From positions 1-45,409 of the forward strand of contig JAAYAN010000136.1 in assembly GCA_012719345.1 (NCBI GenBank): a stretch of DNA of 45,409 bases, written 5' to 3'. Shown here piece after piece: positions 3,131 through 44,233 of this stretch. Source of the stretch: Ignavibacteria bacterium (GTDB lineage: Bacteria > Bacteroidota > Ignavibacteria > Ignavibacteriales > Melioribacteraceae). The notes below the pieces were generated by a model. The model had not been told where the DNA came from, did not search any database, and saw only the letters and a list, made by a program, of their open reading frames with translations. A program made the position numbers and the translations under genes. The number at the start of each line of letters is the position of its first letter. The stretch's first letter is position 1.

Positions 3131-3748
3131 TTATTTATTCAATTTTAGCGTTTTAATAATAGTCATTTTTGTCAGCCAATACTGAAAACCTATCAAAAAT
3201 AATCCACCTATTATTATGAATCCCAAAAGCATAGGAAGTGTAATATCAAATGACAAATTGAACATCCCTTTTAAATTACTGGCTGTATATTTATCAATCA
3301 ACGCAATAGTTGCAGATAATAAACATATAAGACTAATTATTAATGATGTAAATATTGATACCTTTCTAATCTCTCTTTGTATAGTTTCATTATTGGCTTG
3401 TTGGAAAATTAATCTCCTTCCCCAATAATATCCAGCAATTATCCCTAAAATTGGATGAAAAATAGGGACACCCATAAAAAAACCAAAAAGACACGTACTG
3501 TAAAAAATATAAACTCCTATAAGTACTTTTAGAGATATTTTAAAATAATTATTACCCAGAAAATGTTTTATTATAAAATCAATTAATAGTCCGAAAAGCA
3601 GACCACTAATAGCTATTATCATAACAACTTTATTATTTTTAATAAATGGCAGAGATGACCACCAAAAAAGTAAAAAAGTAAAAATCGGAATTACTGCTCC
3701 AAATACTATCCCTAAAATCCATTTATTTGCTTTTTCCATTGTAGTCAT
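3131..3748 (-). CDS. Small multi-pass membrane protein, unknown function
   Basis: 205-aa integral membrane protein, not recognised as a known family. About five hydrophobic segments are visible: roughly residues 11-30, 41-60, 72-92, 95-108 (weaker) and 130-150, plus 172-192. A polar, basic loop (GRRLIFQQANNETIQREIRKV) lies mid-protein. No catalytic motif is apparent. The gene is flanked on both sides by inverted-repeat-containing spacers, which gives it a cassette-like appearance. A start at Met4 is also possible. Confidence 0.7.
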   Translation of the reverse strand: MTTMEKANKWILGIVFGAVIPIFTFLLFWWSSLPFIKNNKVVMIIAISGLLFGLLIDFIIKHFLGNNYFKISLKVLIGVYIFYSTCLFGFFMGVPIFHPILGIIAGYYWGRRLIFQQANNETIQREIRKVSIFTSLIISLICLLSATIALIDKYTASNLKGMFNLSFDITLPMLLGFIIIGGLFLIGFQYWLTKMTIIKTLKLNK

Positions 3749-13502: not shown

Positions 13503-14837
13503 CTATTTCGCGAGCATTATTTTTTTAACCTGATTGAAACTGCCTGCGCTTATTTTAACTAAATAGATTCCGCTCGAAAGGTCGTTAGCTGTGAATTTTA
13601 CTTCGTGCTTTCCGGCATCTTGCGTTTCATTTACAAGTGTTGCAACTTCCTGACCGAGGAGGTTGAAAACCTTGAGGGTAACGAACCCCTCCTGCTTCCT
13701 CCCCTTTACTAAAGGGGAGGACTGAGGTGGGGTTTTGTATTTAATTATTGTTGAGGGATTGAAAGGATTCGGGTAAATACTTTCGATGCCGAATTCGTAT
13801 TTTGTGTAGTCGGTGCTTTCTTCAACATCCAAAATAACTCCGTTATCCAGAATAACTTGATTGGATGCTTCGCTTTCCTGAAACTGATAATTAACGCCAG
13901 TCACTTTGAAAGTATCGGAATAACTGGTAAGCGGAAATTCAAAAATTGTTTTGTCAAATTCGGTAGTGCTAATCAATCCGCTTTTGTTATATATTTTGTA
14001 ATACCATATTTTATCGGCAATTTGATTGTCAATTCTTATATCATTCCAGGTTAGCTTAACCCGATTATCGGCAACTGATCCGGTAAGTTCGATAATCCCG
14101 GTCGGCTTCTCATAAACCGTATCGTTTTTAGAAAATGCAAACATCCAGTCCTTCCACGCGGGTTCGCCCTGAGCAACATCCCAAATTTCGTGTCCGTAAC
14201 CTGGGTAGCTTTTGTATCTCATTTTCTTCGCGCCGATATAAACCAATTCCTCATAAACCCTTTCGGTTAAATCGGGTGTATTTATTTCATCCAATTCTCC
14301 GTGGAACATCCAAAAAGGAGTGTGTGAAATATTTTCTGCCCAGTGCGCCTGTCCGCCGCCGCAGACAGACATAGCCGCTGCAAACTTACCGGAAAATTTA
14401 TGGAGCAAATCAAATGTCCCTTCGCCGCCCATCGAAATTCCGTAAACATAAATTCTGTTTGTGTCAATCGGGTAACTTTTAACCAGGCTATCCAAAACGT
14501 GAATAGCAACAGTCATCGGCTCGGTTAAGTTTTCCCACCAGCCGCTCCAATCTCCCCAGTCTTTCGGGGTTCTTGGTGAATAAACAAAACAGGGATTAAC
14601 AGATTGAACTTCGGTGTCGTACCAATTCAGATAAACCGGATAGTTGCTCCCGAATCCGTGCAAATACATTATAAGCGGATAGAATTTTGCGCTGTCTATT
14701 TTTGCAGGATAAAATACTCCGAACTTCAGCTTCCCGTTTTGCGCTTCGTAATAAGTTTTCGGAAGAAGCTGCGAATAAATATTATGTGAAAGAAGACTGC
14801 CTAATAAAACTGCAAAGATAAATTTTTGAATTTTCAT
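13503..14837 (-). CDS. Secreted esterase/peptidase-like alpha/beta hydrolase with T9SS sorting domain
   Basis: 444-aa exported hydrolase. A signal peptide (residues 1-22) leads into an alpha/beta-hydrolase domain like those of PHB depolymerase/feruloyl-esterase-like proteins, with Ser135 in GISMGG, Asp183 in HGELDE and His216 in YGHEIWD as the likely triad. An Ig/Fn3-like linker follows (about 235-325). The C-terminal T9SS type A domain has the core YPNPFNPSTIIKY and VTLKVFNLLGQEVATLVNE, ending KKIMLAK, so the protein is expected to cross the outer membrane. Residues 369-385 (TPPQSSPLVKGRKQEGF) are encoded by a palindromic DNA insert in the middle of the sorting domain. Substrate unknown. Confidence 0.85.
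   Translation of the reverse strand: MKIQKFIFAVLLGSLLSHNIYSQLLPKTYYEAQNGKLKFGVFYPAKIDSAKFYPLIMYLHGFGSNYPVYLNWYDTEVQSVNPCFVYSPRTPKDWGDWSGWWENLTEPMTVAIHVLDSLVKSYPIDTNRIYVYGISMGGEGTFDLLHKFSGKFAAAMSVCGGGQAHWAENISHTPFWMFHGELDEINTPDLTERVYEELVYIGAKKMRYKSYPGYGHEIWDVAQGEPAWKDWMFAFSKNDTVYEKPTGIIELTGSVADNRVKLTWNDIRIDNQIADKIWYYKIYNKSGLISTTEFDKTIFEFPLTSYSDTFKVTGVNYQFQESEASNQVILDNGVILDVEESTDYTKYEFGIESIYPNPFNPSTIIKYKTPPQSSPLVKGRKQEGFVTLKVFNLLGQEVATLVNETQDAGKHEVKFTANDLSSGIYLVKISAGSFNQVKKIMLAK
13685..13735. repeat. Palindromic element inserted in frame within a CDS
   Basis: The core is a perfect 23-nt palindrome (13698-13720): arms CCTCCCCTTTA and TAAAGGGGAGG around one central C. The outer flanks AACCCCTC (13685-13692) and GAGGTGGGGTT (13725-13735) are also nearly complementary. 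It is much richer in G+C than its surroundings and keeps the host reading frame open. It looks like a member of a dispersed REP/palindromic-element family; no second copy is in this window. Confidence 0.8.
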
Positions 14838-16045: not shown

Positions 16046-16278
16046 CAGGTTATTCCTATTAAAAGTATTTTCGTAAAAACAAATATAGGGAAAGCAATTA
16101 TCAATTATGAATTACAAATTAAGAGTTATGAATTGAAAAGCTTGGGGCATAAATGAAGACTATGGAAGTTTAACGAATTATTGAAATTTCAGACTTGGAA
16201 GCAGTTATAAATACAAAGCAATTTGATTGAATTTGAATCTGCCCGAAGCGTTATTCTAAGCGAAAATGGAGCCCATAT

Positions 16279-16299
16279 AAAAAGCCCGGCGGGCTTTTT
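16279..16299. terminator. Bidirectional rho-independent terminator hairpin
   Basis: Perfect 9-bp stem: AAAAAGCCC (16279-16287), loop GGC, GGGCTTTTT (16291-16299), with A/T runs on both sides. It is suited to ending transcription of the minus-strand carbonic-anhydrase-like gene whose stop is at 16410. Confidence 0.7.
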
Positions 16300-16378
16300 A
16301 AAAAAGCCGGTGATGATTTTTTAAAACCCGGCGGGCTTTTATGCAAGAGCCGGGCAGCTTTTCATATAAACCCGGCGG
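16300..16378. repeat. Further copies of CCCGGC-type hairpin motif
   Basis: After the first hairpin come GCCGG at 16306, CCCGGCGGGC at 16327-16336, GCCGGGC at 16349-16355 and CCCGGCGG at 16371-16378, each bounded by A- or T-runs. Alternate copies are complementary (CCCGGC with GCCGGG), so several competing hairpins are possible. It looks like a duplicated and decayed terminator or REP-like element. Confidence 0.6.
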
Positions 16379-17620: not shown

Positions 17621-17659
17621 AAATAGAAATCAATAAGTCCAACTTATTGATTTCTATTT
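17621..17659. terminator. Perfect 18-bp AT-rich hairpin
   Basis: AAATAGAAATCAATAAGT (17621-17638), loop CCA, then its exact complement (17642-17659). It lies between the methyltransferase start and the stop of the beta-lactamase-like gene, 32 bases past that stop in the direction of transcription. A terminator is the simplest reading, although the low G+C stem is unusual. Confidence 0.6.
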
Positions 17660-39140: not shown

Positions 39141-39180
39141 GGCTTTTTAAAAGAATACTTCTTTTAAAAAGCCTTTTTTT
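39141..39180 (+). terminator. Rho-independent terminator of the ferredoxin gene
   Basis: Perfect 15-bp stem: GGCTTTTTAAAAGAA (39141-39155), loop TAC, and its complement (39159-39173), followed by seven T residues. Confidence 0.92.
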
Positions 39181-44203: not shown

Positions 44204-44233
44204 AAGAGGGGAATTTTGCCAAATTCCCCTCTT
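44204..44233. terminator. Rho-independent terminator of the DUF4038 gene
   Basis: Perfect 13-bp stem: AAGAGGGGAATTT (44204-44216), loop TGCC, AAATTCCCCTCTT (44221-44233). It sits 13 bases past the minus-strand stop at 44246, with a short T-run on that strand. Confidence 0.85.

Follow-up and report, generated by a model that had tools for sequence, protein, structure and literature searches.

A palindromic DNA element of about 51 bp lies in frame in the C-terminal T9SS sorting domain of an esterase gene. The turn that receives it is filled in many sister proteins of the same genome by this element (family A) or by unrelated palindromes, so that one protein loop seems to be a safe harbour for repeated DNA. 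The explanation we favour, at a probability of about 0.8, is repeated insertion or exchange of palindromes at the DNA level into a tolerant T9SS turn, family A being one of several families involved.

The window, i.e., the whole 45,409-nucleotide stretch analysed, encodes on its minus strand a 444-aa esterase/alpha-beta hydrolase (positions 13503 to 14837; ORF prediction and Pfam matches to Abhydrolase_2, Peptidase_S9, Hydrolase_4, and Por_Secre_tail). Its C terminus is a T9SS type A sorting domain (13515 to 13778, minus strand) recognised both by PF18962 (Por_Secre_tail, residues 354 to 441, E = 9.7e-11, 42.3 bits against a cut-off of 27) and by TIGR04183 (38.6 bits, cut-off 23), and measuring 264 bp compared to 228 bp in many domains without an insert. 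The in-frame palindrome that the sequence-only reading had located at 13685 to 13735 is real, one base away, at 13684 to 13734. Its outer arms are AACCCC...GGGGTT, and on the minus strand it encodes TPPQSSPLVKGRKQEGF, flanked by IIKYK and VTLKVF in an uninterrupted reading frame. The inverted repeat consists of two 25-nt arms (13684 to 13708 and 13710 to 13734) that are 84% complementary around a 1-nt spacer. Within it lies the inner hairpin core TCCTCCCCTTT-ACT-AAAGGGGAGGA (13697 to 13721; in full, TCCTCCCCTTTACTAAAGGGGAGGA), a perfect 11-bp stem on 3 nt or, alternatively, 12 bp on 1 nt, which pattern searches found repeated in the genome and in relatives. On the gene strand the element folds at -33.2 kcal/mol versus a shuffle mean of -17.0 (z = -5.75; none of 200 shuffles equalled it). 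Its G+C content of 0.569 (gene, 0.410; window, 0.352) had been called sharply different from that of the gene, which is truer of the window, where 1% of 51-bp stretches reach it, than of the gene, where 6% do, stretches overlapping the element included. Perfect stems of at least 11 bp (loop of at most 9) occur at five places in the window, and only the 13684 to 13734 palindrome lies within an ORF of at least 100 aa. The four further strong palindromes, between such ORFs (16278 to 16300, 17621 to 17659, 39141 to 39173, and 44204 to 44233), look terminator-like or may be repeats; no Rfam family was detected in the window.

An AlphaFold2 model of the window domain, computed with 47 relatives (mean pLDDT 84.6), predicts strands at 18-25 and 39-47 on either side of the insert, with the lowest mean confidence (61) in the insert's block 31-40. 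This fits an insert accommodated in a tolerated turn between beta strands, in keeping with the earlier suggestion that the added residues might be tolerated as a loop. A PDB sequence search with the domain profile gave no match; in the fold search, the sole match at E ≤ 0.001 was a Brr2 helicase region, with the T9SS substrate complex 8glk_D at rank 24 (26% identity).

If the palindrome is a repeat, as the sequence-only reading supposed, further copies should exist in the genome (4.02 Mb, 323 contigs), and they do. The 19-base core was found with at most three mismatches at 18 loci, 13 of them at one and the same junction within T9SS domains (7 with the family A core and 6 with a variant, A2). 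The family A copy on contig C240 sits in a sorting domain shortened at the front. The six A2 loci correspond to five sites, because an insertion sequence has split one of them, with L015 as one side and L016 as the other. This element, 1,447 bp long and carrying a DDE transposase (PF01609), interrupts an A2 palindrome within a T9SS gene, leaving core on both sides (L015 from about 1500, L016 to about 1520; G000:C147:14676-16174). Four of the five core loci outside T9SS domains adjoin DUF559 genes. A stricter gapped core pattern matched 12 places: six in T9SS domains (contigs C113, C118, C145, C177, C240, and C261), four adjoining DUF559 genes (C46, C164, and two on C284), and two elsewhere (C98:3458 and C284:4715). 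All the T9SS copies read use one reading frame. The outer arms of the window copy are inverted relative to its sibling copies in the genome, as is probably also the case in another species (L141); the two orientations point to an event at the DNA level.

Family A is not alone at this site. TIGR04183 matched 83 loci in the genome, all of which were examined; 65 of them yielded 67 rows in a motif search, and the 18 loci without a row include the fragments L088 and L096, which do carry A and A2. Removal of two rows lacking the second motif (L042 and L091) and of four duplicates left 61 distinct domains. In 32 of these the stretch between NPFNP and the second strand has its standard length of 20 residues; the loop is longer in the other 29. 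Perfect stems of at least 7 bp were present in 19 of the 29 lengthened loops, in none of the 32 standard loops (Fisher P = 7e-9), and in 5 of 70 control stretches downstream in the same 29 domains (P = 4e-9); at a threshold of 6 bp the contrast was weaker (21/29, 3/32, and 17/70, respectively). Apart from A and A2, the occupants, which we grouped by eye into families A to G, include a CCTGCCGGCAGG type (B), a CCCCTCTCGAGAGGGG type (C), a GTAG-tagged GTAGAGACG...CGTC type (D), TGATGCAAACTTTGCATCA (F), and others, and in L094 a B element is nested within A. The family E loops (L046 and L058), repeat-like in look, were rejected as palindromes by the stem test.

Searching named-species genomes for a relaxed pattern of the filled site yielded 51 matches in 47 stretches; a stem of 7 bp or more immediately precedes the match in 29 of them and is missing in 18. 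Five of the stemless stretches (L117, L122, L130, L151, and L152) read as decayed or cut palindromes. The other 13 (L107, L110, L113, L116, L119, L124, L127, L128, L133, L137, L144, L147, and L149) were discarded as filled sites, being ordinary loops or unrelated proteins. The filled sites come from MAGs titled Melioribacteraceae, Ignavibacteria, Ignavibacteriales, Ignavibacteriaceae, Ignavibacteriae, Bacteroidetes, and Bacterium BMS3Abin04. The same residues without a DNA palindrome, which would have spoken against the element as read from the sequence, were not seen at the filled sites read in these genomes, which keep the palindrome either intact or with single pairs broken. One sorting-domain loop (L139, about 3600 to 3700; JACAFB010000011.1) has an apparent extra inverted repeat nested in the stretch after a decayed palindrome, with the reading frame kept.

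Arm plus junction were matched in 7 of 391 genomes of the class: within T9SS loops in six (G000, the host of the window, which has the same family code as G016, and G016, G336, G052, G257, and G361), and in G110 at a place that lacks a T9SS motif and is 98 bp away from a DUF559 match. The core TCCCCTTT-N3-5-AAAGGGGA occupies 21 places in G016 (17 T9SS loops, 2 T9SS remnants, 1 by DUF559, and 1 other) and 13 in G336 (9 T9SS loops, 1 remnant, 2 bracketing DUF559, and 1 in a methylase-like ORF), DUF559 adjacency and L302 having been assigned in this survey from coordinates and translation. These two related genomes show the same concentration of palindromes in the loop, and the T9SS copies read in them use a single reading frame even though other frames of the element are also open. 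The insert is mostly TSSPLxKGRTEEGF in G016 and TPPSSSPLxKGRNEVGF in G336. In two genomes selected for their many DUF559 genes, 20 longer-span sorting domains were examined and 18 gave readable loops, three of which carry a 9-bp stem (L322, L323, and L334, the last in a loop of standard length); several long loops there look like ordinary variation. The loop hot spot is unequally filled between genomes.

DUF559 is a Vsr-like nuclease family, and its genes have a palindrome-rich neighbourhood. We looked at 45 of 54 DUF559 loci, dropping weak or partial ones (L052, L219, L226, L229, L231, and L233 to L236), and based the statistic on the 29 with a frame of less than 200 aa ("stand-alone"). In 22 of these 29 loci a hairpin of 9 bp or more containing two G4/C4 runs was present within 250 bp, versus in none of 29 control hydrolase loci from the family genomes (98 kb; Fisher P = 6e-10), a comparison for which the hairpin criterion was set after the first loci had been seen, the controls are unmatched in intergenic length, and L155, the window gene, was left out. 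Hairpin density was 1.16 per kb near DUF559 (27 in 23 kb), compared to 3 in 65 kb farther away; 6 of the 16 loci with longer frames had such a hairpin somewhere. The family A core occurs in at least 17 of 86 genomes of the order, at no fewer than 78 places, 75 of them among the matches listed. Outside G000, G016, and G336, at least 9 of 34 listed cores have a listed DUF559 match no more than 500 bp away versus 0.05 expected, and in these three genomes at least 5 of 41 versus 0.045, the expected values assuming uniform placement and ignoring that palindromes avoid genes. These associations suggest a DUF559 nuclease as a candidate partner of family A palindromes. Seven Y1_Tnp matches were found in the window's own genome, none of whose loci has a family A or A2 hairpin; one of them is a Y1_Tnp remnant (L319, about 121 to 380; G000:C56) that has GTAG-tagged palindromes of family D both at it and behind it.

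Which palindrome fills the loop has little to do with the ancestry of the domain. On a maximum-likelihood tree of 59 domains built with the loop omitted, 28 of whose 56 inner branches are weak, occupant kind required 27 changes, compared to a mean of 27.0 with shuffled labels. There were as many changes as rows for A (6/6), A2 (4/4), B (4/4), C (4/4), and D (5/5), and starred branches alone force five changes for family A. The sister of the window domain is an empty domain (support 100/99). Occupant kind is thus mostly uncorrelated with domain ancestry, while the empty and lengthened states are mildly clustered (15 changes versus 19.8 in shuffles, only 11 of 500 of which were that low). Near-identical domains can hold different palindromes: L065 and L086 agree at 98.5% over the 66 bp upstream of their inserts and at 94.8% over the 174 bp downstream, and L079 and L086 at 92.7% (123 bp) and 94.3%, respectively. 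L065, L069, and L086, three of the four members of the near-identical group, are near contig ends, so their assembly is less safe.

The favoured reading would work as follows. A family A palindrome would enter in frame at the turn between neighbouring beta strands, replacing a few loop residues, and the turn would be a landing place shared by unrelated palindrome families that enter many times in different T9SS proteins. Arrival may be by transposition-like insertion or by very short-tract exchange, with secretion presumably still working, and we propose that in-frame copies are kept by selection because the loop tolerates extra residues. DUF559 nucleases are put forward as the family A partner, the association being seen and mobilisation proposed. 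The repetition, the single site, the several families, the independence of occupant and ancestry, and the two orientations are direct observations. Several points stand against the favoured reading. The window gene offers no clean empty site: searching 57 family genomes with the hydrolase part gave some match in 47 (best outside the own genome, E = 8.7e-36, 40% identity) but no orthologue with a sorting domain, and the NPFNP...LxVYN motif was present at none of 29 hydrolase loci of relatives (L156 to L184). The closest empty paralogue (L037), 87.9% alike downstream and 68% upstream of the site, is also compatible with recombination inside the loop. Inspection of ten paralogue pairs by eye revealed no target-site duplication, the inserts replacing loop residues. 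The mild clustering on the tree, the 10 of 29 longer loops without a 7-bp stem, and the 5 of 70 control stretches with one likewise count against it, as does the reliance on MAG data with three domains near contig ends.

Alternatively, each family might have been inserted only once or a few times, with duplication or gene conversion then spreading the palindrome-bearing domains among T9SS genes. The junctions and insert variants common within one genome (G016 and G336), the identical reading frame, and the clustering of empty and lengthened loops would all agree with such copying. We nevertheless consider it rather doubtful, since the DNA after the insert has diverged far more at third codon positions (agreement 0.54, 0.59, and 0.58 over the next 54 bases in three genomes) than the insert itself (0.84, 0.93, and 0.81; 17/17, 8/10, and 5/7 T9SS copies passing the filter). 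Conversion would need tracts of roughly the length of the element itself, and the independence of occupant kind from the domain tree and the domains alike on both flanks of different inserts (L065/L086 and L079/L086) also speak against it. A role of the hairpin near the mRNA 3′ end, kept to protect or pace the message, might draw on the strong gene-strand fold and on arms that are much less variable than the three loop bases, which take 11 forms. However, in 40 distinct in-frame A copies, counted in one reading frame and with cores at least 18/22 alike to the consensus, 14 of 440 stem pairs are broken, every one by a one-sided change, and a paired change was found in one copy only, which we read as decay after arrival. 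The hairpin is also absent from many domains, making an RNA role improbable. That the inserted residues extend the sorting signal functionally and were selected for this is, if anything, more improbable still: they are in frame, at a single site, and in many presumably secreted proteins, but the peptides at that site are unrelated, 32 of 61 domains have the standard loop, copies decay one-sidedly, and the distribution is patchy across the class and includes the G110 copy beside DUF559 without a T9SS motif.

As to how family A moves, an IS200-like tyrosine transposase (RAYT), as for classical REPs, would render the DUF559 neighbourhood incidental. The seven Y1_Tnp matches and the remnant with tagged family D lend this some weight, and 25 of the 34 listed A cores in other genomes have no adjacent listed DUF559 gene, so that most are not next to a known one. 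It appears unlikely to us given the absence of family A and A2 from all seven Y1_Tnp loci, the missing GTAG tag, and the excess of cores within 500 bp of DUF559.

Among known systems, Rickettsia palindromic elements are described as about 150 bp long and located in unrelated metabolic genes (PMC10969869), and in Di Nocera et al. R. conorii RPE sequences are reported to end in CGTC, RPE-4 and RPE-6 being shorter CGTC REPs (PMC3733652). The Rickettsia likeness proposed from the sequence holds insofar as these, too, are palindromic repeats in frame in protein genes, apparently tolerated, with several families per genome. It does not extend further: going by the published descriptions, family A is set apart by its length of about 51 bp, by AACCCC/GGGGTT arms in place of a CGTC end, and by its confinement to one fixed loop of one domain family, which is shared with unrelated palindromes. 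Its filled sites were in Ignavibacteria- and Bacteroidetes-titled MAGs, not in Rickettsia, within the pattern search of named-species genomes. REP elements are described as short palindromes with paired units and known intragenic copies (PMC3733652). Family D, GTAG-tagged and found at a Y1_Tnp remnant, resembles them, whereas family A has no GTAG and lies beside DUF559 rather than Y1_Tnp genes. The same source reports different intragenic REPs at approximately one coding site of recB in Xanthomonas campestris and X. oryzae (PMC3733652), i.e., in one gene of two species, in contrast to many paralogues of one genome and several families here. MITEs are nonautonomous repeats able to make in-frame fusions (PMC10969869), with a size range of 70 to 300 bp (PMC3733652); family A has outer arms but is shorter, and shows no target-site duplication by eye. 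In sum, family A behaves like RPEs and intragenic REPs yet lacks the tags and the partner characteristic of them.

What is new is the common harbour for unrelated palindromes in one protein loop and the DUF559 neighbourhood of palindromes. No palindromes in T9SS sorting domains appeared among the matches listed in the open-access literature, and no link of DUF559 to palindromic repeats other than CRISPR in its titles and opening abstracts, subscription papers lying mostly outside that search. Protein-coding palindromes are mostly known dispersed over unrelated genes. Here, many from unrelated families gather in a single loop of a domain present in numerous copies, so that tolerance and turnover become measurable in many natural replicates within one genome, and the DUF559 association provides a concrete, testable partner for untagged palindromes. 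More speculatively, and we hold this only tentatively, DUF559 nucleases could be dedicated mobilisers of an entire class of palindromes with G/C arms and no tag, forming with them a nuclease-based equivalent of the RAYT-REP pair, with the T9SS turn serving as a genome-wide safe harbour at the protein level that these and RAYT-type REPs would enter again and again, constantly remodelling the secretion tags of the organism.

Two minor observations concern contig C57 of G336. A DUF559 gene (L306; G336:C57:20838-21332) has on each side a two-hairpin unit (AACCCCTCC-hairpin-hairpin-GGGATGGGTTT), the two being almost identical, an arrangement resembling a compact mobile unit. A methylase-like 673-aa frame (L307), about 1.7 kb from a DUF559 gene with palindromes on both sides, contains a family A palindrome read in frame (NPSFALPFGKGEGWVGF) as well as another peptide of similar look (NPPSLPPFNKGRGGAG).
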